From: Siphonodentalium dalli
Lineage: Eukaryota > Mollusca > Scaphopoda > Gadilida > Siphonodentaliidae
DNA length: 64,000 bases
NCBI GenBank assembly: GCA_032622095.1
Contig: CP136069.1
Coordinates: forward strand, 162,057,043 to 162,121,042
Direction: 5' to 3'
Below, one piece after another: positions 25,133 to 58,958 of the stretch. The translations under genes were made by a program, and so were the position numbers. Each line of letters opens with the position of its first letter. Positions within the stretch are counted from its first letter, which is position 1. The notes under the pieces are model-generated. The model worked only from the letters and a program-made list of their open reading frames with translations. It had not been told where the DNA came from and ran no database searches.

Positions 25133-25532
25133 TTAACCCTTTACCCAACAAACCGGCCAAAACCGGCCAAATAAAGCTTCAACAGCCTAAAATATCTTCG
25201 GTCTGTCTCAATAGAACCATACACATATGGATATCATTGGAACCGGCTCCTTGACCACATTGTGATAGTTACAGTTATGCCCTGTGCCAATGCATTCTCT
25301 TATATATGCGAGTCGACCATAGGTCGCCTCGCATATATAAGAGAATGCATTGGCCTAACAAAAATCTTTTTTTAACACTTTTTACAATTTTTTCTTACAT
25401 TCTTTAACAATTTTATAATTTTTAATGTGTTAAGCCAATGCATTCTCTTATATATGCGAGGCGACCTATGGTCGACTCGCATATATAAGAGAATGCATTG
25501 GCACAGGGCCCTTCTGTTGGGTAAAGGGTTAA
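25133..25532. mobile_element. piggyBac-like MITE with paired hairpins, copy 1
   Basis: Bounded by TTAACCCTTTACCCAACA and its exact reverse complement TGTTGGGTAAAGGGTTAA, giving an 18-bp terminal repeat that includes a TTAA target site as in piggyBac insertions. Inside are two 67-nt near-perfect palindromes (25287-25353 and 25435-25501), inverted relative to each other and separated by an AT-rich spacer. The longer left shoulder contains AACCGGCCAAA repeats. Non-coding. Confidence 0.9.
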
Positions 25533-26198
25533 AGTGGGAATCATACACAGTTCGGGTTGATTCGCCAATACATAAGTAGAACCACAACACTTCCCTCGTC
25601 AGAATAGACTAATAGACTGATACCATGGCATAATGGACATTAATTCGTTATATTCGACAACGGCGTATCGCATAACACGCACTATCAGACATACATGGAT
25701 GTATGCATGTCGGACAGTCAGTCCATTTTTGCAAACGTTCTTGTGCACCTTGAGGCTAAATTTCCATTTATATTGTTTATCGCATCGGTCGCACGTTAAC
25801 GCGATTATCTGTGCATTCCTTGTGTATGTTCCGTCAAATGGTTATTTTACTACGAAAAGAAAGACCTTCCGCATGTTTCACACGTAATGTCATTTTGCCT
25901 ATCGAGCACTGAATGCCACGTGACTCTTCTTCAAGTTCGATCCCGCAGATTTAAAAGTTGCACGACAACCATGTAGAGTTTTCGCACGTCTCGTTGTGCA
26001 GCGCTAAATACATGTATAGTTCCACGTGAGACAGTAAATATATTGTGATACGCAATTTGCGGTACACTAGCATCTAACCGGTTAAGACTGATTGTGTGTG
26101 GATACGCTGAAATTTACCCTATAGATTCTCACACTTTCTTCGTTGGTATATTCTCTCTAGGAACACATTGATCACTCAAGAAAATTGAAGAGGATGTA
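25533..26198. other. No feature recognised
   Basis: Unique sequence between two copies of the same MITE. The 84-codon frame at 25633-25887 is not recognisable. Confidence 0.4.
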
Positions 26199-26578
26199 TT
26201 AACCCTTTACCCAACAAACCGGCCAAAAACGCCCAAATAAAGCTTCAACAGTCTAAATTATCTTTAAAATATGGATATCATTGGAACCGGCTCATTGACC
26301 ACATTGTGATGGTTACAGTTATGCCCTGTGCCAATGCATTCTCTTATATATGCGAGTCGACCATAGGTCGCCTCGCATATATATAAGAGAATGCATTGGC
26401 CTAAATAAAATCTTTTTTTAACACTTTTTACCATTTTTTCTTACATTCTTTAACAATTTTATAATTTTTAATGTGTTAAGCCAATGCATTCTCTTATATA
26501 TGCGAGGCGACCTATGGTCGACTCGCATATATAAGAGAATGCATTGGCACAGGGCCGTTCTGTTGGGTAAAGGGTTAA
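26199..26578. mobile_element. piggyBac-like MITE with paired hairpins, copy 2
   Basis: Same ends and internal plan as copy 1, with TTAA at both edges. The left shoulder is shorter (the TCGGTCTGTCTC segment is missing) and the first hairpin has an extra AT pair in its stem. Confidence 0.9.
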
Positions 26579-28230
26579 GTAAGATGCGTCTTAGATCTCA
26601 CGATTTATATTTTCCCTTGCAGGAACGCCCTATATCATTAGTCATTACTCCTTGTGCGTTGAACTGTTCAAATCATCGTTGATAAGCCATCAAAGCCCAT
26701 GTATAGCGAACGTATTTAGTGATGGACTTGGTCAAAAATATGACACTTTATAAATGAAATTGATGAAATTCCAACGGTGGTGTACTGTCAAGAGGACAAA
26801 ATTGGTAAATTTCCTGCACAATTTCCGGTGTCGGATATACACGGTTAATATGTTGTTTTCGTGCTGTTGTGGCCATTTGCCTGCCATTTCATGGCCGCGA
26901 TTTTATTTTTTTCTGTCCGTATTTGTTCGAAGGTTCAGGGAGCTCTCTATTCAGGAGATATATCTTAATTTTGCGGTCGCTGTATGCTCGATTAATGTTC
27001 AAAATAGCTATACGTTGGCGGACGGTTAAGTTTTGGACGCGAGTACGGTGTTAATTTTTCTTGTTCAATAATTTGATGGAGTGTCGGCTGTAGTATCTAA
27101 TACTTCCAAACTGGTGGCCATATCTATTGCAAAAATAATGTGGATGCTGAAAGGAGACAATTTGAATCGATGAATAATTTGATGATGCCTCTCAATTCTT
27201 ATCGTCGTAACGTCATGAATTTATCGAATCTGGCGACAAATGAATGTGTGATAGTGTGACCATTGGCCAAATGGAAGAATATCAAATTTGCCTTTTTGTA
27301 TGAACTTGTTCTGTTTTCTACATTGAATAGGAAATGGTGTGGTGTCGTCTAAAAATGCAAAATTGACGGGATACCATTGGAAAAGTCAAACTAATTTTAT
27401 TTGTGCGCCCAGTTAGGGGTCGGCAACATCGGATTCTCATATTGGAATAGTTCAGCATCAAGGAAAGTTTGGTCCCACCTCCTGGTGTCCATGACTTACG
27501 AACGCGCGCACTCGCAGCCGTCCTCTGTTCAAAAGTACTTTAATGCTTCGGGAATTGTCACTTGCCATTTTGACATCCATTCTCTAGGTCAGACGACTTG
27601 CATTAATGTCTCGCGCGCATCCATTATTGCGAATTGTGAGGCTTCCCGAATTCGAATCTTAGTCGTCTTAACAAACAACCTCTTGGCTCTTTGATCAGGA
27701 TCTAATGTGCGTCTCCTTTGATAGCCATACCTCTATGGCGCAACTGTCCATCAACATTGCCACAATTCGAGCTCAAATTGGTTTCTGCGAGTCGGTTAAA
27801 ATCCCAGCCCATTGACCAACGGACGGTAATCTGTCAGATTAACGGCTCTAACATTCCTTTTTAAAGCAAACAGGCGGTGTGTAACCCAAAAAAGACGAAT
27901 TGAAGTAATGAAGAAAAAAACAACTATAAACACGTGTTTGGGTCTCAAACAAAAACAGTCATTGATGTTAGCACGACCAGGAACAGAAAAGAGCGTTCGG
28001 TGTTAGTCTATTCCTGATATAGTAGAAATAAAGAGTGTTTGTCTGGCTTCTGGCAAAAACATTAAAACGGCTGGATATTGGCTGCCGCCATTTGGAGGTT
28101 CGAATGAGCCATGTCCGTTTAAAGTGATGTGAAACATTCCGGCAGAGTCAACAAATATAAATGGATAATAATCTTGCTCAAAGTAGTTGTTTTTTTGCAA
28201 ATATTATATCCAAATTGAGAACACACATCG
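26579..28230. other. No gene recognised over 1.6 kb
   Basis: The longest frames (26754-27029 and 27401-27694, plus) encode 91 and 97 residues with no motifs I know. The sequence is less repetitive than its surroundings. It may be unique intergenic or intronic DNA. Confidence 0.35.
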
Positions 28231-28417
28231 TCATTCTTATATATTAATTAAATGCAGTGACTTTAGGTGGCGAAGTCGTTTTCGTTAGTTTATCGCCGAT
28301 AGGTGCGTCCCGAATCGAGAGGTAATTAACTACTTACAATTGCGCGTAGTTCAGACGATGTTTTCTATGGAGTGTTACAGTCTATTTGCTTAAGATTTTC
28401 GGCGATGTTCGTAGAAT
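28231..28417 (-). repeat. Dispersed repeat R, copy 2
   Basis: Reverse complement of the family at 22437 and 59018: CATTCTACGAACATCGCCG, AACATCGTCTGAACTACGCG and CTCGATTCGGGACGC are recognisable on the minus strand. Confidence 0.75.
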
Positions 28418-28714
28418 GCTATAAGTTTCACACACCCGAACAAGTCCATAATATGTCTTTAAAATCCACGTCAAGCAGGGTGTGTGATATCCAGAGGTGA
28501 CACCACATGCGCGGATCACGTGCAATAGATTGATTGATAGAGAAAAAAATCCGAAAATAAATCAGTTGGAATTCGAAATCTGTCAACAAAGGTATATTTG
28601 ATGTGGTTTGACCATTACCTGGAGACATTATCTGGAGACATTGGTAAACGGTTATGTCATTCTTATTACTGCGACATGCTTCCGAATATCTTTATATTGA
28701 CGTGTGTGCTCTGG

Positions 28715-30070
28715 TTTAACCCTATCTATACTGAAGCATCATTGATGAGTAGTTATCCCATAGGAAATGTTCAGATAATAAGTTTAACCCTATCTATACT
28801 GAAGCATAATTAATGAGCAGTTATCCCATAGGAAGTGGTCAGATAATAAGTTTAACCCTATCTATACTGAAGCATAATTGATGAGTAGTTATCACATAGG
28901 AAGTGGTCAGATAATAAGTTTAACCCTATCTATACTAAAGCATAATTGATGAGTAGTTATCCCATAGGAAATGGTCAGATAATAAGTTTAACACTATCTA
29001 CACTAAAACATCATTGATGAGTAGTTATCCCATAGGAAATGGTCAGATATTAGTTTAACCCTATCTATACTGAAGCATAATTGATGAGTAGTTATCCCAT
29101 AGGAAATGGTCAGATAATACGTTTAACCCTATCTATACTAAAGCATCATTGATGAGCAGTTATCCCATAGGAAATGGTCAGATAAAAAGTTTAACCCTAT
29201 CTATACTGAAACATCATTGATGTGTATTTATCCCATAGGAAATGGTCAGATAATAAGTTTAACCCTATCTATACTGGAGCATAATTGATGAGTAGTTATC
29301 CCATAGGAAATGGTCAGATAATACGTTTAACCCTATCTATACTAAAGCATCATTGATGAGCAGTTATCCCATAAGAAATGGTCAGATAATAAGTTTAACA
29401 CTATCTACACTAAAACATCATTGATGGGTATTTATCACATAGGAAATGTTCAGATAATAAGTTTAACCCTACCTATAATAAATCATCATTGATGAGTAGT
29501 TATCCCATAGGAAATGGTCAGATAATAAGATTGACCCTTTCTATAATAAAGCATAATTGGTGTGTATTTATCCAACAGGAAATGGTCAGATAATAAGTTT
29601 AACCCTATCTATACTATAACATCATTGATGAGTATTTATCACATAGGAAATGTTCAGATAATAAGTTTAACCCTACCTATACTAAATCATCATAGATGAG
29701 TATTTATCACATAGGAAATGTTCAGATAATAAGTTTAACCCTACCTATTCTAAATCATCATTGATGAGTAGTTATCCCATAGGAAATGGTCAGATAATAA
29801 ATTTAACCCTTTCTATTCTAAACCACAATTGGTGAGTATTTATCCAACATGAAATGGTCAGATAATAAGTTTAACCCTATCTATACTGAAACATCATTGA
29901 TGTGTATTTATCAAATAGGAAATGTTCAGATAATAAGTTTAACCCTACCTATTCTAAATCGTCATTGGTGAGTAGTTATCCCATAGGAAATGGTCAGATA
30001 ATAAGTGTAACACTATATATACTAAAGCATCATTAATGAGTAGTTAATCCATAGGAAATGGTCAGATATA
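28715..30070. repeat. 68-bp satellite array, about 20 units
   Basis: TTTAACCCTATCTATACT starts at 28715, 28783 and 28851 and continues with little length change to 30070. The unit also has CATCATTGATGAGTAGTTAT and CCCATAGGAAATGGTCAGAT. Variants such as TATTTATCACAT and GTTCAGAT alternate in the right half, suggesting a higher-order mixture of unit types. Smaller clusters of the same unit lie near 42.8 kb, with diverged relics near 50 kb. Confidence 0.95.
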
Positions 30071-30074
30071 TAGA

Positions 30075-30214
30075 ATACACCCATAGTAGCCGAGAATAAC
30101 AAATTTTCACCACGAGTGGTATTGTGGTTTTAACCACGAGCCTTTGGCGAGTGGTTAAAACCACAATTCCACGAGTGGTGAAATTTTTTTATTCTCGGCT
30201 ACTATGGGTGTATT
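30075..30214. mobile_element. Short foldback MITE (ACCACGAGTGG family), copy 2
   Basis: ATACACCCATAGTAGCCGAG at the left is inverted at the right (CTCGGCTACTATGGGTGTAT). Internal arms TTTTCACCACGAGTGG and CCACGAGTGGTGAAA form nearly complete pairing. It sits directly at the right edge of the 68-bp satellite. Confidence 0.85.
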
Positions 30215-33451: not shown

Positions 33452-33560
33452 TACAGTAATGCCCTAATTAGTCGACTCCATAACCACAGCAGAATTATGT
33501 ATAACTTTCCAGGATTTAGTCGGAAATATGGCTTGTTGCCATTCATCGGAAATCTCTCCC
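33452..33560. mobile_element. Half copy of TACAGTAATGCCC foldback MITE
   Basis: TACAGTAATGCCCTAATTAG through GGATTTAGTCGGAAATATGG to CATTCATCGGAAATCTCTC is the left arm of the family. The inverted right arm is absent. Confidence 0.75.
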
Positions 33561-33647
33561 ATATAATAATGAATTGGCAGTGTCTCAGAAACAGAACATT
33601 AATTTGATTTGGCCTTACTAAACTCAGCAGAACCACCACCATCATAG

Positions 33648-33829
33648 TACAGTAATGCCCTAAATAATTGACTCCTTAACCACAGCAGAATTATGGGTAA
33701 CTTTTCAGCATTTAGTCGAAAATATGGCTTTCCGATGAATGGCAACAAGCCATATTTCCAACTAAATCCTGAAAAGTTACCCATAATTCTGCTGTGGTTA
33801 AGCAGTCGATTAATTAGGGCATTACTGTA
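33648..33829. mobile_element. Mariner-like foldback MITE (TACAGTAATGCCC), full copy
   Basis: TA-CAGTAATGCCCTAAATAAT at the left and ATTAGGGCATTACTG-TA at the right. Arms are complementary nearly to the centre (GGCTTTCCGATGAATGGC). TA flanks and a CAGT tip fit Tc1/mariner-mobilised MITEs. Confidence 0.85.
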
Positions 33830-33919: not shown

Positions 33920-34195
33920 TTAACCCTTTCATTATGGGAGCAGCATTCACCCTTCCATGATTGGAGCATTGGAAATATTGCAAAAAAACCATGTGCTAAT
34001 GCATTCTCTTATATATGGTCGTTTCCAGTAGGGATCCTAGAATATGTAAGAGAATACATTACATTGGCCTAACAATATTTACCTTGACCTTGTAAGCCAG
34101 TGCATTCTCTTATATATGTGAGGCTACCTAGTATGGTATCTGCAAAAAAAAGGGAATGCACTGGCACATGATTCATTGCTCCACCAGCGCAGTTC
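33920..34195. mobile_element. TTAA hairpin MITE, CCTTTCA subfamily, diverged
   Basis: Starts TTAACCCTTTCATTATGGG. Contains degraded CAATGCATTCTCTTATATAT stems at 34005, 34060 and 34100. The right end near TTGCTCCACCAGCGCAG lacks a clear TTAA, so the limit is approximate. Confidence 0.55.
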
Positions 34196-34327
34196 CCATC
34201 AAGAAATGGTTATATTATATATTCGAGTCTCCCAAGTCCTTCCAACTGCATGTTTTGTAGATTTTATTTTCCTGCTTTACCTGGCTTTACAGAAGAAATT
34301 TAATCATTTACAAATTTCCGGATTCAC

Positions 34328-34872: not shown

Positions 34873-35200
34873 ACATTTCATGACTGGAGCTTCCTGAAAT
34901 TTTGCAAAAACACTATACCAATGCATTCTCTTATATATGCCAGTCTCCCATAGGCAGACCTAAAAACATTTATCTTGACTATGCAAGCCAGTGCATTCTT
35001 TTATATATACAAGGTGCCATATGGGAGACCATTATTTATGATTAATCCTTCCATAACTGGAGCTTCATGAATTTTTTTGAAAACCTGTGCCAATGCATTC
35101 TCTTATATATGCGAGTCTCCCATAGGATGCCTTGCATATATAAGAGAATGCATTAAGCTAACAATACTTGTATTGAACTTCTAAGCCAGTGAACTCTCTG
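34873..35200. mobile_element. Two adjoining diverged TTAA-type hairpin MITE fragments
   Basis: CATGACTGGAGCTTCCTGAA at about 34879 and CATAACTGGAGCTTCATGAA at about 35050 mark two starts in tandem, the second after ATTAATCCTTC. Each leads into CAATGCATTCTCTTATATAT with loops GTCTCCCATAGG. Right arms are partly missing. Confidence 0.55.
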
Positions 35201-37292: not shown

Positions 37293-37508
37293 TACAGTAA
37301 TGCCCAAAGTAATTGACACTTAACCACAGCAGAATTATGGGTAATTTTTCAGGATTTAGTTGGAAATATGGCTTGTTGCCATTCATCGGAAAGCTCTCGA
37401 CGAGAGCTTTCCAACGAATAGCAACAAGCCATATTTCCAACTAAATCCTGAATTATTTTCCATAATCCTGGTGTGGTTAAGGGGTCAATTACTTTGGGTA
37501 TTACTGTA
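37293..37508. mobile_element. Mariner-like foldback MITE (TACAGTAATGCCC), copy 3
   Basis: TA-CAGTAATGCCCAAAGTAAT to TACTTTGGGTATTACTG-TA, with the hairpin centre GGAAAGCTCTCGACGAGAGC. The subterminal AAAGTAATTGACxxxTTAACC matches copy 5 (56698), defining a subfamily. Confidence 0.85.
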
Positions 37509-39611: not shown

Positions 39612-40062
39612 GGTTACACTGGTGTAAATAAGGTTCCGAGTGACATCTAGCGGATGCGGGAGGAATATATAGGAGAGAATAAAATAGACACTGGGCCCTG
39701 ATTGGTCAATAGCCTTGTGTGCTTTTCACATAAAAAAATCATCACACCTCTTCCCTATGATTTCCCATAGGTAAAATAACCATTGGCACAGGAATTAACC
39801 CTTTGTAGTGAAGTTTGAATTTTTTGGTGTGGTCTAAAATATGACTGTATTTTTTTATGCGGTTCTGACACTAGTTACGAAAACATAAGATTTAAAGGCG
39901 AATTCCCTGCTAGACAGACATGATTTTTTTGTGTAAAAAGTTTCCCAAAATGTCAATTTTTCAGATTTAAAGAAAATTTTGGACCCAACATTTATATTGC
40001 CAACACTATACGCTAAAACGTTAGCACTGAGGCCTATGGAAAACATTTACACCAGTGTAACC
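39612..40062. mobile_element. 451-bp MITE with GGTTACACTGG ends, copy 1
   Basis: Perfect inverted tips GGTTACACTGGTGTAAAT and ATTTACACCAGTGTAACC, flanked by TAA on both sides, compatible with a 3-bp TWA target duplication as in PIF/Harbinger elements. Non-coding. Almost identical to 41865-42315, in the same orientation. Confidence 0.9.
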
Positions 40063-41862
40063 TAAAGGGAAAAAATAGCTTTTTATCATTTTTGATTCCT
40101 GGGAGTCACTTTAAAGCATTTTAATGCATTTTACAGAGCCTGGTCTTTCAGTCCAATGAATATCTCATGCTTGATGTGGCTATTCTTGCTGCTGATGTCT
40201 TCTTTCACTTACATCAGCCAAAAAAATAGTAAGATTTTTCATAAAAAATGCCAATTTTTCAAGGTATTTTCAAATTTTTTCAAGGTGGTAATAGTCACAT
40301 GATAATGCAAATGACCCATAACATGGGCATGTCAACGACACATATATTAATTGTTATAAGAACCTAATTTAACAAGTATTTTGGATTTTATAGCCAGTGA
40401 TATACAGATATATATCATAAAAGTGTGTCATTTCCACTGGTGGGTATGGTCATTTGAAGGTTAATAGCACTAAAACTTGGACACATTTAAGAAAATGCTT
40501 CAGCAATTCAAAGAGAGCATATCTTTATTCAACTAATTCAATATACACCCACATCCAGTTATCTTGGATCACCCTTGCAGACCTGAAAATGTCATATTTT
40601 ATTCTTCAATGTGCTGATAAAGTCATGCGTTTGATGCTCAGCTGATCAGATCTGGACTCAATGACCTCACATCACCAGAAGTTCTCTCATGGAAAGAATA
40701 TTGGACAGTCTTCCATAGCTGATCCAAGTTTGCAACACCAGACCCCTAAAACTGAGTGAAAATGGGGCCTGAACATGACTGGTGGTGGAAAATTGTGCTT
40801 TTTTGATGAATAATTTGTTAAAGGGGGTGGGGTTAAATTGTGTGTGATAAATAAAGAACCACAGAAGTGATATTGTTTTTGAACACATTTTTTCCATTGA
40901 TGGGCAATTCTGAAGAAATGTAGGGAGTTACAATTATTCCGCGAAAAAGCGGGCTATCGCTTTAAAGGGAAAAAATAGCTTTTTATCATTTTTGATTCCT
41001 GGGAGTCACTTTAAAGCATTTTAATGCATTTTACAGAGCCTGGTCTTTCAGTCCAATGAATATCTCATGCTTGATGTGGCTATTCTTGCTGCTGATGTCT
41101 TCTTTCACTTACATCAGCCAAAAAAATAGTAAGATTTTTCATAAAAAATGCCAATTTTTCAAGGTATTTTCAAATTTTTTCAAGGTGGTAATAGTCACAT
41201 GATAATGCAAATGACCCATAACATGGGCATGTCAACGACACATATATTAATTGTTATAAGAACCTAATTTAACAAGTATTTTGGATTTTATAGCCAGTGA
41301 TATACAGATATATATCATAAAAGTGTGTCATTTCCACTGGTGGGTATGGTCATTTGAAGGTTAATAGCACTAAAACTTGGACACATTTAAGAAAATGCTT
41401 CAGCAAGTCAAAGAGAGCATATCTTTATTCAACTAATTCAATATACACCCACATCCAGTTATCTTGGATCACCCTTGCAGACCTGAAAATGTCATATTTT
41501 ATTCTTCAATGTGCTGATAAAGTCATGCGTTTGATGCTCAGCTGATCAGATCTGGACTCAATGACCTCACATCACCAGAAGTTCTCTCATGGAAAGAATA
41601 TTGGACAGTCTTCCATAGGTGATCCAAGTTTGCAACACCAGACCCCTAAAACTGAGTGAAAATGGGGCCTGAACATGACTGGTGGTGGAAAATTGTGCTT
41701 TTTTGATGAATAATTTGTTAAAGGGGGTGGGGTTAAATTGTGTGTGATAAATAAAGAACCACAGAAGTGATATTGTTTTTTAACACATTTTTTCCATTGA
41801 TGGGCAATTCTGAAGAAATGTAGGGAGTTACAATTATTCCGCGAAAAAGCGGGCTATCGCTT
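40063..41862. repeat. Exact-length tandem duplication of a 900-bp unit
   Basis: TAAAGGGAAAAAATAGC starts at 40063 and at 40963. The two 900-bp copies are the same length and differ at only a few visible bases (for example CAATTC/CAAGTC and CATAGCT/CATAGGT). The only frame (63 codons) is duplicated with one substitution and has no known motif. An AATAAAG-like 3' end motif is near 40848 and 41748. The pair lies precisely between two 451-bp MITEs. Confidence 0.95.
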
Positions 41863-41864: not shown

Positions 41865-42315
41865 GGTTACACTGGTGTAAATAAGGTTCCGAGTGACATC
41901 TAGCGGATGCGGGAGGAATATATAGGAGAGAATAAAATAGACACTGGGCCCTGATTGGTCAATAGCCTTGTGTGCTTTTCACATAAAAAAATCATCACAC
42001 CTCTTCCCTATGATTTCCCATAGGTAAAATAACCATTGGCACAGGAATTAACCCTTTGTAGTGAAGTTTGAATTTTTTGGTGTGGTCTAAAATATGACTG
42101 TATTTTTTTATGCGGTTCTGACACTAGTTACGAAAACATAAGATTTAAAGGCGAATTCCCTGCTAGACAGACATGATTTTTTTGTGTAAAAAGTTTCCCT
42201 AAATGTCAATTTTTCAGATTTAAAGAAAATTTTGGACCCAACATTTATATTGCCAACACTATACGCTAAAACGTTAGCACTGAAGCCTATGGAAAACATT
42301 TACACCAGTGTAACC
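41865..42315. mobile_element. 451-bp MITE with GGTTACACTGG ends, copy 2
   Basis: Same orientation, length and ends as copy 1, flanked by TTA on both sides. The visible differences from copy 1 are few (CCCAAAATG/CCCTAAATG and GAGGCC/GAAGCC). The different target triplet suggests a separate insertion event rather than simple duplication of one insertion. Confidence 0.9.
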
Positions 42316-42796: not shown

Positions 42797-43083
42797 AAAA
42801 TAAGTTTAACCCTATCTATACTAAAAATAATTGCTGAGTATTTATCACATAGGAAATGTTCAGATAATACGTTTAACCCTACCTATACTAATGCATCATT
42901 GGTGAGTAGTTATCCCATATGAAATGGTCATATAATAAGTTTAACCATATCTATACTAAAGTATCGTTGATGAGTAGTTATTCCATAGGAAATGGTCAGA
43001 TAATAAGTTTAACCCTATCTATACTAAATCATCATTGATGAGCAGTTATCCCATAGGAAATGATCAGATAATAAGTTCAACAA
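42797..43083. repeat. 68-bp satellite, second cluster, about 4 units
   Basis: AAGTTTAACCCTATCTATAC with CATAGGAAATGTTCAGATAA repeats match the array at 28.7 kb. Ends abruptly at AATAAGTTCAACAAACGAC, the same junction sequence seen beside the relic at 50.0 kb. Confidence 0.9.
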
Positions 43084-44829: not shown

Positions 44830-45229
44830 TTAACCCTTTACCCAACAAACCGGCAAAAAACGGCCAAATAAAGCTGCAATAGCCTAAATTATCTTGGGTC
44901 TGTCTCAATAAAACCATACAAATATGGATATCATTGGAACCGGCTCATTGACCACATTGTGATGGTTACAGCTATGCCCTGTTCCAATGCATTCTCTTAT
45001 ATATGCGAGTCGACCATAGGTCGCCTCGCATATATAAGAGAATGCATTGGCCTAAACAAAATCTTTTTTTAACACTTTTTACCCTTTTTTCTTACATTCT
45101 TTAACAATTTTATAATTTGTAATGTGTTAAGCCAATGCATTCTCTTATATATGCGAGGCGACCTATGGTCGACTCGCATATATAAGATAATGCATTGGCA
45201 CAGGGCCGTTCTGTTGGGTAAAGGGTTAA
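44830..45229. mobile_element. piggyBac-like MITE with paired hairpins, copy 3
   Basis: TTAACCCTTTACCCAACA to TGTTGGGTAAAGGGTTAA, same plan as 25133 and 26199. Right hairpin carries a G-to-T change (ATAAGATAATGC). Its right edge directly abuts a different foldback. Confidence 0.9.
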
Positions 45230-45829: not shown

Positions 45830-46722
45830 AATGGCTAGGATTTCGTTGAATACATGTGACTCACGTCAATGGGTGTGGAATAAGCGATATTAAACAATCG
45901 AAGACACGTTTATATGCTGTAATTAACATTTTTATAACCACAGTTGTGCAATATTTGGGCATCTATGAAGAATTTCATTACCATTTGCCAGTTGTGTGAA
46001 CGTATATAGTCTAAACCGGCGTACGTGACCAATTACCAAATAATCAGCATTATGCAATGCATGTTTTTAAAATATGTGGAATCGGTCTATTTTGAGCAGC
46101 ATAAAAATAATTTGGAGCGTTTCCGGTTCTCGGAGTTGTTGTTGACACAGGCTCTACAATAAGAATTGAATCACTTTCGATTGAATAGCACGGCCTGAGT
46201 TTCAGCAACACAAACCTGACGACTCGCATGCAATTACACGCCTGACCTACTCAAAGGAATAGGTGCCTTTACCGTCGCGATTAGGTTAGGGGAATTCGTG
46301 AGCCAGCGGAACAACTCCAATAGTTCGATTAACTCCATCTTTGTTGTGACTATGCACATTGCGCCGGAAGTCAAGCAACGCAGTTATTCCATAATTCGAC
46401 ATATTGCCTTTATTCGAGCCAATTAACTCCTTCATGAGCATATGTCCATGGTGGCAAGTATGACGCCTACGGGAACATGACAACATGCGGGTTGTGATAG
46501 CTGACTGTGTCATCCCGAGTTCATCGCGATCTATCGACTCCTATTGTCTGCAGAGGTACTTGCACGTTTAACAGAATGCCGACATCGCTAGTACAGTATT
46601 GCATTCGATTATACCCCCCCCCCCGACTATGTACTAAATTGCATGGATAGATTCCAGTGTTAGCTAGGACAGAATTACTAACAGAGCGGTGTGATAATCA
46701 CGACATCGCTACCCATGTGAAA
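45830..46722. other. No gene confirmed; one unusual minus frame
   Basis: The minus frame at 46286-46513 (75 codons) has a Cys/His-containing start (HTCHHGHMLMKELIG) and balanced composition, but no family is recognised and it ends in unstructured sequence. Poly-C at 46615-46624. Confidence 0.3.
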
Positions 46723-47019
46723 TACAGTAATGCCCTAAATAATCGACTCCTTAACCAGAGCAGAATTATGGGTAACTTTTCAGGATTTAGTCGGAAATAT
46801 GGCTTGTTGCCATTAATCGGAAAGCTCTCACTGAGAGCTTTCCGATGAATGGCAACTTTTCAGGATTTAGTCGGAAATATGGCTTGTTGCCATTCATCGG
46901 AAAGCTCTCACTGAGAGCTTTCCGATTAATGGCGACAAGCCATATTTCCGACAAAATCCGGAAAAGTTACCCATAATTCTGATGTGGTTAAGGAGTCGAT
47001 TATTTAGGGCATTACTGCA
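46723..47019. mobile_element. Mariner-like foldback MITE (TACAGTAATGCCC), copy 4
   Basis: TA-CAGTAATGCCCTAAATAAT to ATTTAGGGCATTACTG. The centre is duplicated: GGAAAGCTCTCACTGAGAGC occurs twice with an arm segment repeated between, so the element carries an internal foldback duplication absent from copies 2, 3 and 5. Confidence 0.85.
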
Positions 47020-47225
47020 TATTAATCTCGGAGTGTTCCCCGGTGCAGTTGTAATACCCAACGTTTAACGTATACTAGAATTACACTGGTTACGATATAT
47101 TACTAAATTCTGACAACTAGACACTATAACAAACGTTATGTGATCATTGTATGACGATTTCAAATCTAGAAACAACTCGCCGGTCTTTGCATATATGGCA
47201 GATTCTGGTGCAGAAAAAAAATACG

Positions 47226-47262
47226 ACGCATTTGTAACCAGTTACTGGGTTACAAATGCGCC
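47226..47262. repeat. Perfect short hairpin
   Basis: GCATTTGTAACC and GGTTACAAATGC pair around AGTTACTG. Isolated, function unknown. Confidence 0.8.
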
Positions 47263-47733
47263 CTATTTGTTATGGCATTTGGAGTCTCACGAGTGAAATC
47301 CTAGTCTACCATGCACACACGATGTGTCAAAATACCTTAGTTCGAACATTTGCCGCATATAGCATATTCTTCATTTCTGTTTGGGGTTTTAATGATTTGT
47401 CAGATTTGGAAACTTCAGTTTTGAAACATTTGGCTCTGATGCTGATGTGAGGAAAGATTCGGTATCTAATTCATAAATGTTTTATTTGCAACACAAACTT
47501 ATAAAATATATGTACAATGAGATAACATCAACAAATATGTGACCATAGTTGAACGTACAATTGCACTCAGAGGCAAACTAATCGAACAATAAAATCTATA
47601 AGTATTCTAAAAGGCCGATCTGGTTTTCGCAGAATACCCTCTTGAAGTGTCGAAGAGATGTGTTGACCGCCAAAAACTGTCTTCTCTGAGGTTGTCATCG
47701 CCACTAAGTTGTAGTATTGCCACTTATATATAT
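47263..47733. other. No feature recognised
   Basis: Unique sequence. No gene, repeat or RNA signal found. Confidence 0.35.
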
Positions 47734-48199
47734 GTGACCCGCCATATCAAATCCAGTCGGAAGTCGGGATTTTTTTTTTACCCTGTGCCAATGCATTCTC
47801 TTATATATGCGACTCTACCATAGGCCGCCTCGGATATATAAGAGAATGCATTGGCCTAACAATTTTTTATCATTTTTTTTAAATAAATCTTTCTTACAAT
47901 TTTTAGGACATAAAATAAAAAAAACACCCATTACCCTGCAGGGAGCCCCACACATATATAGAAGCATATAGAAGGGTGTCGTCTGCTCATGTTTGTCTGG
48001 GGCTCTGTATGGGTGAAATTATAAAATTGTTAAAGAATACAAGAAAATATTATTAAAATTGTAAAAAATTATTAGGCCAATGCATTCTCTTATAAATGCG
48101 AGGCGACCTATGGTCGACTCGCATATATAAGAGAATGCATTGGCACAGGCAGGGTAAAAAAAATCCCGACTTACGACTGGATTTGATATGGCGGGTCAC
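47734..48199. mobile_element. Paired-hairpin element with GTGACCCGCC ends
   Basis: GTGACCCGCCATATCAAATC at the left is inverted as GATTTGATATGGCGGGTCAC at the right, followed by CGGGATTTTTTTT and AAAAAAAATCCCG. Flanks are TATATA on both sides, so a TA or TATA target is likely. The interior has the same two palindromes (stem CCAATGCATTCTCTTATA...) as the TTAA-flanked MITEs, separated by a different spacer with inverted CAGGGAGCCCCAC/GGGGCTCTG. Confidence 0.85.
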
Positions 48200-49948
48200 A
48201 TATATACGTATGCTCTTTCTTTTTGGGTATACAAATGGCGGACGGAATTAACACTCCACGGTATAAGTACTGAGTTCTGTACAACTTTATTGTGCAAATA
48301 CCCATCAGAAGACCCACCAGAGAAAAGGAGGAGCCTTGAGATAAATAATAAAATGGCAGGATTTGATAACTTTCCATTAGACGACTCGAGTTCTACGTGA
48401 GGCTTTCCCAACTGATCCAATTTGTCTATTGTCGACGTTTAGCAAATTGCGATTGCGCTCACACTATTTGGATTCTCAATAAAGTCGCTAAACGGAGCTA
48501 AAATATAAATTTGCTAGTCGAGACTGCATGGTCCAAGATAATAAAAATATGCATTTGTTGGCAAGTTAATGCTAATAGTTTATTTTAGACCTAGTTAGAT
48601 GTTAAAGGTAACGCTTGAATTGCATGTAACGCTCACGTCACGTTCCACAGATATTCATGTTTTCAACAACATCCCAAATTTTGTCCAGGTATAACGGAGA
48701 TCTATCCTTACATCGTAAGGGTCTCGTATTGCTAAATAGCTGTACGGTGCCAAGTTTAAACACAATTGACTGGACAATAACGGAATATAGACATTCTGGG
48801 GCGAAGTTCTGTCCATGCACAGACGGACGGATGGTCACACAAGCTTATTCCAGTATACTTCGTTACGGGAGTGTATATATACAACAGAAACTATGAGAAC
48901 TTGAATCAATGTACATGTATACGCGTCCGTTTGTTCGCCTCCGGGTAATAGGTCACGTGGCACGAAACGACTGTGACTACATGTATATGCATTTTGTTTC
49001 ACTGGATTTGAGGGCCAATCCGACAAACGGCTGTCGGCATCTTTACAAATACAGTAGAAGTATAGAACATAGGATTATTCGATAATGTGTTTACATGAGC
49101 AACATAACTGGCTTCCGGATTGGTAATTACTCATCAATAGCCGACAAGAGGGTAAATCAAATGGCCATTACCGGCTAATTCACCCCATATAGCGTGACAA
49201 TAAACACCCGATCGATATGTCGAGACCTTTGTTACCTTCCCTTATCAACCTCCCGGGTATAATTCCGAAAAATGCAGCTGCGTGGGTTATTGGCAAATAT
49301 GTGTCTTCTTCGTATCATTTGCGGGCTCTACCCCGGCCGCATATAGAAGGAGTTCAACGGCTCATTATTTGGCTAAAAAAATAACCTTTCACCGATAGAC
49401 TGGTTATTCAAAAACATATGCCGCTTAAAGATACGGCCGGCGTTGGCGCTGGGTATGCTGTTAAAATATTCACCTCCGTCAAAAACAGCCATAAACAGAA
49501 GGAATAGTAAGATATAAACATACGTTGTTCTTATGCCAATCAGAAATATGGCATAAACAGTATGTTATTGTCAATTTGTTCCCCTTTGTTATGTAAACAA
49601 AAGCAAAAAACGTTACTTTTCCTGGCTTTTGTTTAGATCCGGATATGGTAAACATAAAGAGCGTTATTTGTTACTGTTTTCCTGATATGGAAATAATAAA
49701 GAGCGTTTATATCATTTGTGTGTGATTAACCAACAGAATTGCGCTGTGTTATGTAAACAGAAGCACAATTTTGTAACACGAGCAGTATCTTGTTTACGTA
49801 CACCATCGTACGTCTTGACGACAATATACTATTTACGCGCAGATTATGTTTGGCATATGAGCGAAACTGTATATATTTTGTTGTTCCTTCTGTTGATGGC
49901 GATTTGAACAAATATAAATATTTCTGCAACGAACGCCGCCCGTGCCTT
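48200..49948. other. No gene confirmed; AATAAAGAGCGTT motifs
   Basis: ATAAAGAGCGTTA near 49657 and ATAAAGAGCGTTT near 49691 are copies of a motif also seen near 1415, 59520, 63178 and 63222. Frames at 48638-48896 are unremarkable. Otherwise unique. Confidence 0.35.
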
Positions 49949-52500: not shown

Positions 52501-52588
52501 GATGTACACAACGAAGCCGAAACCGCATTGGAATGGCTTATTTATGAAATCGATGTATAGCACTATAACGATCTATAACGGTCATGAT

Positions 52589-53249: not shown

Positions 53250-54465
53250 CGCAAACACCGAGCACGTTTCTAATCCTCTGGCAGGAGAGTGTAGCGAAAC
53301 GGTCGTGATTGCTTCGATCCTTATTAGTTCCTCTTCTGTCGGAGCGTTGAGCACGGGTGAGTCGTGTGGTCGCGCCTCCGGGTGCAGCTGCCCCCGTGCT
53401 TAACGCCAGTGAGACGGTTTTGGATTAGGCTTATGGATTTAATCCCAGAAGCCGTGTTGGCCGCAGTGCAAAGGTGTCGGGTATTGGACATTGCTAACTG
53501 GAGTCTCCAGTCTAGCAGGGGATACCTGACCCTTTGCCTGGAGTTCCGGACCGAAGATGCTGGCATCCAGAAATCACAGACCCGGGACACCAACTCCAAG
53601 ACTGCCTCCTGTCACCTGAGTGGGAAGAAGAAGGGGCCGCCCAAGAAAAAGACGCCTGCGAGGAAAAGAATGGACGCCGCCAGACGAGCCAAATGGAAGA
53701 AGAGGGGGGTGACTGTTCATCTGCCAGTCACCCCTCCCCTTGTTGTTCAGCCGACGTCCAATGTCACAGCCGGCAGGTCGGGGTTGTCTGAGAGACGCCC
53801 AGACGACACGACCTGCATTGAGACAGGCGACATCGCACCAGCTAGCAGGGACTCCGTTGATCTTCCGGAGATCCCTGCTGTCGTCGTCGAGGCAAGCGGA
53901 ACAAGGGAGCAGGAAACCACCCCTGCTGTTCCTGCCGCCTGCTTCGAGGTGGAACTGGACAGCTTGCCACCACGGACACCGGATTACCAGAACATCCCGG
54001 TGTCCCCCAGCTCCACCACCAGCAACAACAACAGCACTCGGTCTGTTCAGTCTGTAGAAGAAACCATCCGCTTGCAGATAACGCCATCGCTAATGCTGAT
54101 AGACACAGCAAAGAACAATCAGAAAACTTCCAACGCTACTTAAAAGAGCAAGAAGCGAAGCAAGAAGCGGAACTACAGCGTATCATCCAACAGTACCATC
54201 AGAGACATCCTTCACCTCAGTCATCAACCGAAAAACCAAATGCAAAGAAGAAAAAAAAAAAAATAATAATCACCATCACAAAATGCTTACCATTTTTTTT
54301 TTTTTTTTTTGTATGATCACAAATAAAGGCAACAACATGAGGGATTAAGGGGAGGACCACTCGGTCCTTCCGACAATCCCGGGCTAGGCCCCCCGAACCA
54401 CTCATTCTCTCTCGTTTCTAATCACATTTAGTATCCAATTACGCAAACACCGAGTATGTTTTAAT
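53250..54465 (+). mobile_element. Retroelement between imperfect direct repeats
   Basis: TACGCAAACACCGAGCACGT near 53250 recurs as TACGCAAACACCGAGTATGT near 54441, consistent with an old, long target duplication. Between lie a GC-richer leader, an ORF1-like gene, A-rich and poly-T tracts (54245-54310) and a conserved 3' end that also occurs alone at 13134-13215. No reverse transcriptase is present, so this is a non-autonomous derivative that would depend on an enzyme made elsewhere. Confidence 0.6.
53364..54245 (+). pseudogene. ORF1-like retroelement protein, frameshifted
   Basis: The main frame (259 codons, 53364-54143) contains LIPEAVLAAVQRCRVLD near residue 26, a strongly basic block KKKGPPKKKTPARKRMDAAR (about 87-107) typical of nucleic-acid-binding retroelement proteins, then a Pro/Thr/Ser-rich low-complexity region. 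Near 54065 the coding signal moves to another frame that reads ADNAIANADRHSKEQSENFQ and then EQEAKQEAELQRIIQQYHQR, a plausible coiled coil, ending in a Lys-rich tail at about 54245. I infer one ancestral protein broken by a frameshift. The initiator is uncertain because GC-rich leader sequence precedes it. A host origin is not excluded, but the linked dispersed 3' end argues for a mobile element. Confidence 0.5.
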
Positions 54466-54589
54466 CACATTTAGACCACCACCTCCTGCGACAGGGTCAG
54501 ATATACTTGCCAATATACATCCTAGGATGGCGGATCTAAGAATGGACTCAGGTAATGCACTCCTGATATTACCTCTCATAGGGATTAAT

Positions 54590-54785
54590 TAAAATACATG
54601 TATGGTTCCATGAGGGTAAATTAAAATATGGTCACACCCAGAGAGGGTTAATTGAAATATGGTCCGATGAGGGTAAATTAAAATATGGTCACATCACGGT
54701 TAAATAAAATATGGTCCCATGAGGGTTATTTAATATATGGTCCAATGAGGGTTAATAAAAAATATGGTCCCATGATGGTTAATCA
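54590..54785. repeat. Imperfect minisatellite, about 30-bp unit
   Basis: GGGTAAATTAAAATATGGTC and CATGAGGGTTAATA forms recur six to seven times with varied spacing. No coding potential. Confidence 0.85.
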
Positions 54786-54892
54786 GCTCGCACTTCTTGG
54801 CATGCGAATAACAAACCATGGATCCACCAAGCATGTCTCGAGAGACGCCCGCTGCTTGAAATAATAATGTAAACGACAATAAACGAAATTGA

Positions 54893-55040
54893 AATTCCCA
54901 ACTACACCTTTTACCGGACTCGGCTCGGGGTCGCACTACAACTTTTGATGTGTCCCAAAAATCCCCATTTCTATAAATAACAAATCCATGCGTCCATTGA
55001 ATACCAAGAAACAGTAGCTGAGTATACACCCGGAGTGCGA
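54893..55040 (-). repeat. Dispersed repeat S, copy 2
   Basis: Minus-strand match to 50345-50478: CTCCGGGTGTATACTCAG, GACGCATGGATTTG, AATGGGGATTTTTGGG, GCGACCCCGAGCC and GTCCGGTAAAAGGTGTAG in order. Confidence 0.65.
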
Positions 55041-56139
55041 AATAATCGTTTGGATTTTGAGTATTGGCTATTTGTTATGCTAATTGGGATTTCTCATATA
55101 AAGCCTTTGCTAAATATACTTATTCCAACGATTATGATATATTAATTACATATTTATGTTACATTAATCACATAGAGGCCTTAGTGGAGTTGGTATTGAC
55201 CCCAATCAGCTCGCATATGGAACCATAAGGTATAATAACCTATATACACTGATATATGTATATATACCATTCCGAGATACACCGCGAATGGTACATGTAC
55301 CTGACCTCAAAGGGGCCCAATGCCATCGAAGTCGGGTTTATTCAAAATAACATAAATTGTATAAAAGTCTGTGAATCAACTACCATCATCAAATACATGT
55401 AAACATAAATAGACTTTGTTCTTGTTTTCATTATTAAAACTCTAAGATAACGATATTTTTGAATATCGAAACCATTGTTTTTTACAGTTACAGTGGAATT
55501 ATCAATCGAAGTCCGATTAGTCCAATAAGACAACAATGTTTAATCAAAGCCTGGCATTTAAAATTGGAAAATGTCAAAGCATTAAAAAATATTTTGAAAT
55601 TCATATTTAGACGAAATTATTTTAACTTGCATGTGCTACACGATTAACGGTGTTTGTTGACAAATCACTGTAACCGTTTTGTTATTGGAGAGCAAGTCAA
55701 GAATATCGATGAATCATCGTTGATTTATTCGGGAAATCATCATTAGATAATACTGCTGAACAGCCTCTCGGTTTGTAGCGATTACAGTTGGTAGAACTCC
55801 CAGTTTTTGAAAGCAGCTATACCCGATTGTAGGGGAGACTTGTTCCTTATACGAATTAGGTTTACGCCCACCTAAGATATATATAGTTTAATAAGATTTT
55901 GACATTTTTGCCCAACTCTCGTCTGAATTGTTGATAGCATCTGTAGGTTAATTTGTGTCTCGCTTCCGAAGCTGCCAGTTTGAATTAGTCCACGGAAGCA
56001 CCCTGCTTGTGTAGCAATTATTCACACAAATCTAATAAAAATCCAATAGTCGAGTAATATTTACCTTTCTGAACTCTTTGGATCCATCTTTGCTTGGACA
56101 CTGGTGCTAAAATATCTGAGATATGTATCTTTGGAGATT
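55041..56139. other. No feature recognised
   Basis: AT-rich unique sequence. Short frames have no known motif. Confidence 0.35.
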
Positions 56140-56226
56140 TTGGGTTTGATTCGGAGAATCAGGGTTTCATTAGGAGAATCAGGGTTTGGTCATCGGAAAA
56201 TCCATGGTTTATTCGGATAATCAGAT
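56140..56226. repeat. Short tandem repeat with GGAGAATCAGGGTTT
   Basis: Three to four imperfect copies of about 28 bp (TTCGGAGAATCAGGGTTTCA, then diverged forms). It resembles, but does not match, the CCGAAG modules at 4.3 kb. Confidence 0.6.
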
Positions 56227-56379
56227 AAACGATTATACAGTGTGATAATATACGTCATATATATTCGATCCCATCACTTTGGTACCCGCCCGTGTAATAG
56301 CCTAATTCATAAGCAAAATTTTCACCAGATCGTCCAAATTTGCAGATCCTGGAGCCGAATATATGATATTGTATACCTG

Positions 56380-56695
56380 AGGCCTGCAGTGTTACGTGTC
56401 TCTTTCCCAATGCGGAATATACTGAAATCACTGCAGGAGAGACGAGAAATAAAGAGGCTCCACAAGTTCCACAAAATCGGACACGCGCGGGGAATTGCAG
56501 TTAAACTTCCAACATATGTGCAACACCAGACCCGGGAAACCAAACAATACCATCCACCAAAATATATCCCACTTCAGCCTGATTCTGATACATAAAACAG
56601 TTACCTCTGTCGTACTATCAACGACTGGAACAAGTTGTAGTGGTTGAATATATTTGACATAGATCAATATGCATCGTTCAAGGAGAACCTTCTTA
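56380..56695 (+). pseudogene. LINE reverse transcriptase C-terminal relic
   Basis: Plus-strand frame reads MRNILKSLQERREIKRLHKF (about 56412-56470), GIAVKLPTYVQHQTRETKQY and YIPLQPDSD, then past a stop LCRTINDWNKL-stop-W and FDIDQYASFKENL. This order is the thumb/C-terminal tail common to Jockey/CR1-group polymerases in marine invertebrates. The palm with catalytic residues is missing. A mariner-like MITE has inserted at its right edge. Distinct in sequence from the 38.2-kb relic. Confidence 0.7.
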
Positions 56696-56697
56696 TA

Positions 56698-56860
56698 TAC
56701 AGTAATGTCCAAAGTAATTGACCACTTAACCACATCAGAATTATGGGTAATAATAGAGCTTTCCGATGAATGGCAACAAGCCATATTTCCGACTAAATCC
56801 TGAAAAATTACCCATAATTCTGCTGTGGTTAAGTGGTCAATTACTTTGGGTATTACTGTA
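56698..56860. mobile_element. Mariner-like foldback MITE (TACAGTAATGCCC), copy 5
   Basis: TA-CAGTAATGTCCAAAGTAAT to ACTTTGGGTATTACTG-TA. One arm is shortened (GGGTAATAATAGAGCTTTCC), so it is not fully symmetrical. It lies just downstream of the LINE relic. Confidence 0.85.
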
Positions 56861-56980
56861 CTACAAATTTAGATATCCTTAGATTAATTAACTGTTATTA
56901 TGCTGTTCTCATACAACAGCAAACTCATGTGATGTGCCTCAATGACCTCTTATGAGTTTCCGTAAATGTAAAAAAAACAA

Positions 56981-57310
56981 TGCCTTGACCGGTTCGGCTG
57001 TTCTCTAAATGCCATAACCGGTTCTGCTGTTCTCTGTGCATTGACCGGTTCGCTTGTTCTCTGTGCCTTGACCGGTTCGGCTGTTCTCTGTGTCTTGACC
57101 GGTTCGGCTGTTCTCTGAATGCCTTGACCGGTTCGGTTGTTCCCTGTGCCTTGATCGGTTCGGCTGTTCTCTGTGCCTTGACCGGTTCGGCTGTTCTCTG
57201 TGCCTTGACCGGTTCGTCTGTTCTCTGTGCCTTGATCGGTTCGGCTGTTCTCTGTGCCTTTACCGGTTCGGCTGTTCTATGTGCCTTGACCGGTTCGGCT
57301 GTTCTCTGTG
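56981..57310. repeat. 27-bp minisatellite, about 12 units
   Basis: TTGACCGGTTCGGCTGTTCT plus CTGTGCC recurs about twelve times with point variants (CTTGTTC, GATCGGTT, AATGCC). As 27 is a multiple of three, a 150-codon minus-strand frame (56925-57377) reads through as repeats of AEPVKAQRT before slipping frame. There is no support that it is translated. Confidence 0.95.
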
Positions 57311-57783
57311 CACAATAGTCTTTCGTGTACCGTCGATCGTGGTATACCCATCGTGTTTTTTGTTCCGCTTCTAACATGGGTAAATCTCCATTGATTATCG
57401 AGAGTTTTGTGGATTTTTTTTTACATGGCTACCTTATATCTGGAACTGCGTGGTTTATCATTTTTGTAGAAAAATTACTTATTGCTATAACATATAACCA
57501 TACAATTTACAGTTAAAATGTCTTGGGCTTGAAATGCATGTCCCTTGTCAAATGCATTGCACTTAAATTGGTACTGTACACTAAATCGTTTGTGGGAACA
57601 TATCCTTTTATACTCAACAGAATATATGCAACAACTGAATACATTTGAGCCATATATATATAAAAAATACACTCATGTGCTCTATGGGTGAGTTGAGAAT
57701 ACAGAACACGTTCTCGTTCGATTTTATCTCGTTATATTGAACGCTGTTATTGTCACCAATGGTTGCGGTGACAGGTGTCACAT

Positions 57784-58392
57784 TAGCGATGGCATAATAG
57801 GTGTGACAATTTATTATGGTGGAGTTTGGTGACAATTGGTCGTAATAATTATGTGCCGTAGCTAGCCATGTTGCCCGCTGAGTTTCCGCACAATGAGTCG
57901 ACTGGACCAATTAACCCATTGGGTTTCATCAAGGTTGATCTCTACTCATTAAGTTATGCTACATTGTATTCTCTACGATATATATATAATTGCACGATCG
58001 ATCGTCCAGAATTGTGTTTGACCGTGGCAATCCCTCATTCACTCACATATCATGCACGGAGTACATTTTATTAATATGATCTCAATGCATGTTTATCTAC
58101 TTATATTAATTCCATGCGTATTAAGACAGTTCCCCGATTGCGTTTTTTATTTTTGTGACGTTTATTTCTACGCATAATTCCGCTAACATTATAATATGGG
58201 CCGATGAATCTGTTTCGGAACTGTTGGGGGAAATACAAAAACAAGAACAATTCTGATTATAACGAACTTTGGAAGTCTCATTGTGCGAATATGCAGTGGG
58301 CGACATGGCTAGCTATGGCATATTAATTATGACGACCAATTGTCATCAAACTCCACCATAATAAATTGTCACACCTACCGTGCCATCGCTAC
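57784..58392. mobile_element. Inverted-arm element with about 120-bp arms
   Basis: TAGCGATGGCATAATAGGTG, TTATTATGGTGGAGTTTGG and GTAGCTAGCCATGTTGCCC at 57784-57900 are inverted at 58272-58392. The centre of about 370 bp is unique and non-coding. Target duplication not determined. Confidence 0.85.
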
Positions 58393-58568
58393 CGTGGTAC
58401 GTGTGTCTGCAGCCAATAAGTTTTAACCAGAATATATCATCGCCGCGTAAACAGTAGATAGTGTGTTTTCTAAGTTCTACATTTGATGTCATGTAAACTT
58501 TCACGATGATTGTGGTGGCGATGCTCAAATACATATTATGGACTTCAGCATAAGTTATATCCCATCGT

Positions 58569-58958
58569 CAGGGGAATTTTTTTTACCCTGTGCCAAAGCA
58601 TTCTCTTATATATGCGAGTCGACCATAGGTCGCCTCGCATATATAAGAGAATGCATTGGCCTAACAATTTTTTATCATGTTTTTTAAATAAATGTTTCTT
58701 ACAATTTTTAGGACATTAAATAAAAAACATCCATTACCCTGCAGGGAGCCCCACACATATATAGAAGCATATAGAAGAGTGTCGTCTGCTCATGTTTGTC
58801 TGGGGCTCTGTATGGGTGAAATTATAAAATTGTTAAAGAATACAAGAAAAAAATAATAAAATTGTAAAAAATTGTTAGGCCAATGGATTCTCTTATATAT
58901 GCGAGTCGACCTATGGTCGACTCGCATATATAAGATAATGCATTGGCACAGGGTAAAA
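58569..58958. mobile_element. Paired-hairpin element, eroded ends
   Basis: Same interior as 47734-48199, including the CAGGGAGCCCCAC spacer. The left shoulder CAGGGGAATTTTTTTTACCC resembles the inner part of the GTGACCCGCC ends, but the outer tips are not found. The right hairpin has matching GTCGAC on both sides, losing the usual asymmetry. Confidence 0.8.

Follow-up and report, generated by a model that had tools for sequence, protein, structure and literature searches.

Related hairpin modules within abundant MITE families of different ends in Siphonodentalium dalli

Hairpin elements of the window

The window, the whole 64-kb stretch of DNA that was analysed, contains full and partial copies of short elements whose interior carries 67-nt palindromes (hairpins). 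The copies fall into families denoted A, B and C; a fourth, D, was found in the genome.

22677..22981, + strand: C element with CTCCCATAGG-type hairpins
25133..25532, + strand: A element (TTAA...TTAA), 400 bp, two hairpins, with TIR and TTAA at both ends
25287..25353, + strand: hairpin 1 of the first A element
25435..25501, - strand: hairpin 2 of the first A element, the reverse complement of hairpin 1
26199..26578, + strand: A element, 380 bp, two hairpins
33920..34213, + strand: diverged C element with a decayed right end (end coordinate approximate)
34878..35030, + strand: partial C element (coordinates approximate)
35042..35200, + strand: partial C element with an intact first hairpin, 35090-35156 (end approximate)
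44830..45229, + strand: A element, 400 bp, two hairpins
47733..48200, + strand: B element (TGTGACCCGCC...GGCGGGTCACA) with flanking TA on both sides, hairpins 47788-47854 and 48077-48143
58585..58954, + strand: B-type core without B ends, between a T-run (ACCCTGTG) and an A-run (CACAGGGT), hairpins 58593-58659 and 58880-58946

The same hairpin pair is present in the three A elements (25.1, 26.2 and 44.8 kb), which have the 18-bp TIR TTAACCCTTTACCCAACA, and the CTCCCATAGG variant accompanies TTAACCCTTTCA-type ends at 22.7, 33.9, 34.9 and 35.1 kb, the last two being partial copies; both points agree with the original prediction. The hairpins that it placed in the 47.7-kb element are likewise there, but the ends it assigned to that element are not borne out, other copies indicating TGTGACCCGCC and a TA target duplication. 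The copy at 58.6 kb had been taken for an eroded relative of the 47.7-kb element. Its kinship to B is clear (over its 369 nt the core matches the B consensus at 97.6% identity), but simple erosion does not describe it. The core of the first A element (25133..25532) was found at 100% rounded identity in at least 40 genomic places (40 of the 1362 candidates were scored).

Structure and abundance of the module

The palindrome is bordered by CCCTGTG on its outer side and by CCTAACAA on its inner side, where the flank is AT-rich. The two hairpins of an element are mutual reverse complements, i.e. they are the inner portions of long inverted repeats. In the A-type 67-mer a 26-bp stem is followed by a single T.C mismatch and then by a further 5 bp of stem closed by an ATA loop; its stability as RNA, -50.9 kcal/mol, was equalled in 0 of 200 shuffles. 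In the window the loop core CGACCATAGGTCG (≤2 mismatches) has 10 matches against 0.60 expected (0 of 100 shuffles reach 10), and the arm CCAATGCATTCTCTTATATATGCGAG (≤3 mismatches) has 27 matches against 0.00 expected. A chance origin of the palindromes is ruled out by the shuffle counts for loop core and fold and by the arm matches. A scan of the window against Rfam gave no family at gathering score, and the exact pieces that were searched had no match, one of 26 nt in viral_contigs and one of 27 nt in prokaryote genome_contigs.

Genome-wide, the palindrome is present in four high-copy families (A, B, C and D) of short non-coding elements, mostly about 230-460 bp in length. Counting an exact 18-nt piece of the module border, a one-base filter being applied, gave 114,632 occurrences across the 2.23 Gb of the genome, against 0 for the reversed-pattern control. 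A random 50-kb sample contained a single hairpin element, of C type.

Ends and target duplications

Exact counts of ends in the genome were 91,612 for A, 19,653 for B and 14,969 for D, with reversed-pattern controls at 0. Families A, C and D have TTAACCCTTT with TTAA at both ends; all three start with CCCTT after the TTAA, matching the CC[C/T]T that is stated as the piggyBac-type terminal motif (PMC2872659). Family B has TGTGACCCGCC, with TIRs identical in consensus, and a 2-bp TA duplication. The TTAA duplication is observed directly at one A locus, where the copy (L002) interrupts another repeat at TTAA, the uninterrupted copy of that repeat in the window having one TTAA; C and D copies have TTAA at both ends. 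Of the 23 B copies shown, 20 have TA/TA target sites (two of them, L009 and L010, represent duplicate loci), one has TT/TT and two have unequal sites.

Since the ends differ, the mobilising enzymes probably differ too: A, C and D were presumably moved by piggyBac-like transposases and B by a Tc1/mariner-like or other TA-specific enzyme. The piggyBac domain PF13843 has 128 matches in the genome, many in open frames of >500 aa; at the eight of these loci that were examined for an autonomous partner, no matching TTAA ends lay within 1.5 kb.

Hairpin form and end type group the families differently

The hairpins of A, B and D are alike in consensus. Those of C differ from them by two compensated base pairs, double changes at stem pairs 29-39 and 30-38, and often by a third (4-64 in some C hairpins). 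The GA/TC form was observed in 28 A, 5 D and 45 B hairpins and the TC/GA form in 21 C hairpins, one B hairpin having neither. Hairpin form thus follows an end-type rule in 99 of the 100 hairpins with assigned ends, the exception being in B; 16 of 116 hairpins were without an end assignment. The spacers of A, B and D can also be aligned with each other, and C has a short spacer of its own type.

The two groupings conflict: by hairpin form, A, B and D go together and C stands apart, whereas by ends and target duplication it is B that stands apart from A, C and D. Agreement of hairpin and end groupings was the check proposed with the original prediction, and their disagreement favours capture of the module. 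These sequence comparisons support at least one transfer of the hairpin module between element classes. No uncoupling of hairpin form from ends is seen inside the families, so the transfers look few and old. The TTAACCCTTT common to A, C and D may be a feature of a superfamily and not a sign of shared descent of their ends, in which case the conflict rests on B (TA) having the A/D form and C (TTAA) having the other.

Vertical inheritance of the hairpins from a single ancestral element, with only the ends diverging, would account for the common TTAACCCTTT start of A, C and D, and coral CMITEs are described as combining a conserved interior with varied piggyBac-like ends (PMC2872659). It does not sit well with B, which differs in both end sequence and target duplication and yet has the hairpin form of A and D, unlike C. 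Such descent is disfavoured, and we consider it very unlikely.

Cores without B ends

Cores with T-run-A before CCCTGTG and B ends on neither side were found at 58.6 kb in the window and at two other loci (L077 and L034). A B end could not be detected to the right of the 58.6-kb core, as 829 of 1000 shuffles align equally well; the left side weakly resembles a B end, a match that 0 of 1000 shuffles equalled but that includes an 8-T run. TA stands directly before CCCTGTG in B, D, the 58.6-kb core, L077, L014, L020 and L082. The cores that have T-run/TA flanks but lack B ends point to a core that once was, or still is, an independent element: CCCTGTG...CACAGGG would be a transposable element with a TA duplication and long inverted repeats holding the hairpins, which inserted alone and also in the middle of B, D and others, A and C being older or rearranged nestings. 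Judged from the consensus, what remained of B after excision of its core at one TA would be a palindrome of ~92 bp. We rate this explanation as possible but doubtful. The borders in A and C have no TA, except in single A copies with TTATACCC; D holds half a core; and L034, in which the core is ~1 kb longer, has TG on its right side. Some of the end-less cores are damaged B copies, as L014 and L020 stop short of the second hairpin, part of a B end survives on the right of L078/L079 and the right end of L080/L081 is aberrant. No filled/empty pair was found; the 58.6-kb locus has a duplicate 978 kb away, and the core is there too.

Simple nesting of one intact element, which the original prediction had set against capture, fails for D, whose share of the B core is ~150 nt and includes a single hairpin, and for A and C, where the module borders lack a target duplication; it may hold for B and the end-less cores. 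Empty sites of the module were found in none of A, B, C or D; the single search for them, with the joined B ends, gave 0 candidates and missed even the B arms.

Is the hairpin under selection?

The hairpin might aid movement or escape from silencing, so that its carriers win whatever their ends. The compensated differences in form between C and A/B/D are compatible with such selection, as is the presence of the module in 34/34 A-ended and 17/20 D-ended pairs and in the bystander elements (A 8/8, C 3/3). Presence of the module would, however, also follow from amplification of a captured master copy, and compensation could equally come from arm-to-arm copying before amplification; within single B copies there was no sign of arm-to-arm conversion among 29 copies. 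The B hairpins are slightly less diverged than the rest of the element (40/3886 versus 134/8454, p = 0.017), but this sample consists of the best-scoring copies of 4046 candidates, and none of the 40 hairpin substitutions in the 29 B copies is a double hit on a stem pair. Copies lacking full hairpins also exist: one D copy has no hairpin, a B copy has one and a half and an A copy (L018) has one. We therefore regard selection on the hairpin as unlikely. The original prediction had offered capture or selection of the module; capture is supported, the hairpin and end groupings being in disagreement, and selection finds no support in the B copies, which mutate without compensation. A wider proposal, that the hairpin is a portable cis-acting part from which every MITE taking it up gains mobility or replication under any class of transposase, the successive waves of otherwise unrelated MITEs in this genome being those that acquired the same hairpin and compensated changes keeping its stem, seems quite improbable.

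Proposed history of the module

The reading that we prefer, and think probable, is that related modules were passed in few old events between MITE families with different ends, TTAA-type and TA-type. In several families of non-autonomous DNA transposons (MITEs) the hairpin, its CCCTGTG border and the AT-rich inner flank would together make up an interior module. Such modules would share descent, a few old events having moved one between the TTAA-type (A, C and D) and the TA-type (B) families. After each transfer the chimeric element, module included, would have multiplied until its copies numbered in the thousands or tens of thousands. As to direction and mechanism, we infer two likely routes: a TA-type core element may have inserted itself into another MITE, or the template may have been switched in gap repair after excision of an element; the latter would also account for the partial module of D. 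With such a history the hairpin would be mostly a passenger.

Comparison with known systems

Two basic questions are concerned, the causes of MITE success and the source of MITE interiors. Here the same interior module recurs within one genome in at least four families, all of them abundant, which between them show two kinds of target duplication, and the copy numbers are big enough for ordering the transfers and for testing an effect of the hairpin. If selected, the hairpin would be a cis element working with different transposases; if unselected, the families would be a clear natural record of interior exchange among MITEs.

A search of the literature on composite MITEs and MITEs with shared interiors, judged from titles and the starts of abstracts, yielded no recognised case beyond CMITEs and MER6, and searches with sequence words of the hairpin and ends returned nothing relevant. 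A, C and D resemble piggyBac-type (TTAA) MITEs in their TTAA duplication, CCCT termini, non-coding nature and high copy number, but differ from them in that the interior is common to a TA-type family too. MER6 is a mariner-derived MITE carrying a SINE V domain (PMC6887750), and so is similar in that a conserved module was taken up and then spread by a DNA transposon; it is a case of one module in one MITE, and its abstract mentions no hairpin exchange among several MITE families. The closest precedent appears to be the CMITE families of Acropora coral, which are described as having different CCCTTT-type TIRs, TTAA duplications and a shared interior, of reportedly unknown origin, that is better conserved than the ends (PMC2872659). 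The likeness lies in architecture, an interior conserved across families with different TIRs; of CMITE sequence, the text of that paper gives the TIRs only. CMITEs measure ~100 bp, of which the interior takes up 75 nt, and are without exception TTAA-type (PMC2872659), whereas the present elements are mostly longer, have a 67-nt hairpin module as interior and include a TA-type family, B. The module families thus seem to work like the CMITE group, and we do not class them as members of it.

The hairpin module and its families

The genome comprises 2.23 Gb in nine contigs and the window lies at G000:C9:162057043-162121042; it contains coding sequence for a LINE-type reverse transcriptase. The 67-nt palindrome folds into a near-perfect stem and, with its arms, occurs in the window far above chance. 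In complete two-hairpin elements hairpin 1 is the reverse complement of hairpin 2, thus the hairpins are the inner parts of long inverted repeats; in the B consensus the two arms match exactly over ~138 nt, from the terminus to the far side of the hairpin. The original prediction that the same hairpin sits in elements with different ends is borne out, the module (palindrome, CCCTGTG outer border and AT-rich inner flank) spanning at least four abundant families with two types of target duplication.

Features of the window and of the module-bearing families
Window 20883-22424, (-) strand: reverse transcriptase RVT_1, LINE-like, open over 513 aa, E = 3e-38
Family A (TTAA-type), 25.1, 26.2 and 44.8 kb: ends TTAACCCTTTACCCAACA; usually two hairpins
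Family B (TA-type), 47.7 kb: ends TGTGACCCGCC; consensus 461 bp
Family C (TTAA-type), 22.7, 33.9, 34.9 and 35.1 kb: left end TTAACCCTTTCATGACGGGAGC, right end TTAACCCTTCCATGACTGGAGC, loops CTCCCATAGGGAG
Family D (TTAA-type), outside the window (L062-L066, L070-L076): ends TTAACCCTTTGAGTGCCAGG; mostly ~240 bp

A elements are most often near 400 bp long (range 233-470 bp, 34 end pairs). At locus L002 one splits another repeat at TTAA, and the uninterrupted window copy of that repeat has a single TTAA at that point. For C, scoring covered 40 of 2886 similarity candidates: the window copy itself and 39 others with 86-90% identity over ~185-200 of 307 query bases. B is flanked by TA/TA in 20 of the 23 copies shown (the loci L009 and L010 being duplicates), the exceptions being TT/TT in L027 and unequal flanks in L021 and L034; mean divergence from the 461-bp consensus is 1.45% (29 of 30 copies, window copy L009 excluded). 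The D copies read carry one hairpin each, and ~150 nt (CCCTGTG to TTCTTTAACA) resemble the right half of the B core, the extent being judged by eye; no D element occurs in the window. At L058 (~1700) a C and an A element lie end to end with a single TTAA common to both; such pairs could act as composite elements.

Counted as exact matches over the whole genome, forward and reverse, the module border occurs 114,632 times (those with a non-G 15 positions upstream), A ends 91,612, B ends 19,653, D ends 14,969 and, when three upstream positions are required to be non-T, TACCCTGTGCCAATGCATTCTC 14,585 times; reversed-pattern controls for all five gave 0. The places listed are the first 100 per pattern, all on contig C1, so presence and spacing are described for that stretch. 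There, an exact module border lies inside all 34 exact A end pairs <1 kb apart (in the part covered by both lists). Another 32 exact A ends have no exact partner, and for 19 of these no exact module border lies within 600 bp; 12 of the 19 belong to repeats with regular spacing at 0.74-0.92 Mb and four fall past the end of the module-border list. These 19 ends may include A-ended pieces that lack the module. Among the listed matches for D, the exact module lies inside 17/20 end pairs and within 600 bp of 55/73 exact ends; L086, one of the three pairs without it, has no hairpin and retains CCCTGT and the spacer. B has an exact match in six of ten end pairs in the covered part of C1, the other four comprising two of normal length and two of ~1.4 kb; the border pattern misses T-runs of seven, where G falls on the filtered position. 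In L085, a 284-bp B copy, an internal deletion has left one complete hairpin and half of the other. Bystander elements flanking other loci have hairpin arms in 8/8 A and 3/3 C cases.

Some of the 100 listed module-border contexts fit none of A-D, and seven such places were read:
L078/L079 and L080/L081: two pairs of duplicate loci outside A-D
L077: core (CCCTGTG...CACAGGG) without B ends
L082/L083 (pair E): judged by eye, resembles an older B core that has a single hairpin

Hairpin form and element ends

We compared 116 distinct hairpins, including the window itself and excluding window copies or duplicates (L001, L009, L010, L052, L084); the set required the T.C mismatch and at most 12 substitutions. 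GA/TC form is found in 87, TC/GA in 28 and neither in one. Pair 29-39 is G-C in 85/87 GA/TC hairpins vs T-A in 26/28 TC/GA, and pair 30-38 is A-T in 86/87 vs C-G in 25/28. Pair 4-64 is A-T in 85/87 GA/TC hairpins; among the 28 TC/GA hairpins it is A-T in 11, G-C in eight, G-T in six and other in three. Standard pairs fill 2230/2262 of the outer 26 positions in GA/TC and 677/728 in TC/GA.

Ends could be assigned for 100 hairpins: those of A (28), B (45) and D (5) are all GA/TC and those of C (21) all TC/GA, one further B hairpin having neither form. The other 16 have different flanks (nine GA/TC, seven TC/GA). Hairpin form therefore unites A, B and D, whereas end type and target duplication unite A, C and D. 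This conflict supports the predicted capture of the module, and is most simply explained if the module crossed at least once between an element of the TTAA type and one of the TA type. Rare mixtures of form and end could be missed, since the copies come mostly from score-ranked searches and the start of C1.

The main rival explanation treats the core without B ends as an element in its own right with a TA duplication. In the 58.6-kb window copy and in L077 one side reads T-run-A-CCCTGTG and the opposite side CACAGGG-T-A-run, with no B end recognisable at either, and the TA at both sides fits such a duplication; however, no empty site was found and some of these cores are damaged B copies. L014 and L020 share the T-run-A-CCCTGTG left border and are cut off ahead of the second hairpin. 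L034 (~2300-3300) is an end-less B-type core with ~1 kb of extra sequence inside and TG, not TA, on the right; it may represent a larger form related to the core. Under module transfer, the end-less core could be the donor.

Maintenance of the palindrome

The original prediction also offered selection on the hairpin itself as a possibility. The compensated nature of the differences between forms shows that lineages which amplified retained the palindrome, via selection or arm-to-arm copying before amplification. Among 40 hairpin substitutions in 29 B copies there are no double hits on a stem pair and no sites common to both hairpins, so nothing shows upkeep after insertion. B hairpins show slightly lower divergence than TIR plus spacer (40/3886 vs 134/8454, p = 0.017), but in 29 of the best-scoring copies from 4046 candidates, and we do not take it to prove a function.

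Neighbouring repeats and duplications

The D elements of L070-L076 (C1:0.82-0.92 Mb) are spaced ~11,175 bp apart and thus belong to a long tandem repeat, where exact A ends show the same spacing. L036 has 3-4 tandem hairpin-plus-spacer units inside A-type elements, and in L065 and L066 C-form hairpins stand in a row adjoining D elements.

Window 46231-49710 and 58062-59462 have near-identical copies (99.4% and 99.8%) ~978 kb farther along the contig, a segmental or assembly duplication. At 40063-41262 a 300-nt stretch recurs 900 bp on with 100% identity, a recent tandem duplication. A further long-palindrome family (33452-33829, 37319-37481, 46722-47020, 56698-56860) has ends TACAGTAATGCCC with TA at the ends, and A elements are inserted into its copies (L002). 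The unit of a 68-bp tandem repeat at 28714-30068 and 42799-43081 includes TCCCATAGG and TTTAACCCTATC, whose short likeness to the C loop and TTAA ends is possibly chance. In CCATTGGCACAGGAATTAACCCTTTG (39779-39804 and 42032-42057) the hairpin border word adjoins a TTAACCC end without a hairpin.

Comparison with known elements

The phenomenon is ordinary in kind, these being MITEs; what is unusual is that a single hairpin module spans two target-duplication types and four or more abundant families. Searches of the open-licence literature yielded no description of a hairpin module shared by MITEs of the TTAA type and the TA type. MER6 (PMC6887750) is an earlier case of a module carried by a DNA transposon, and the nearest precedent is the coral CMITE group (PMC2872659).
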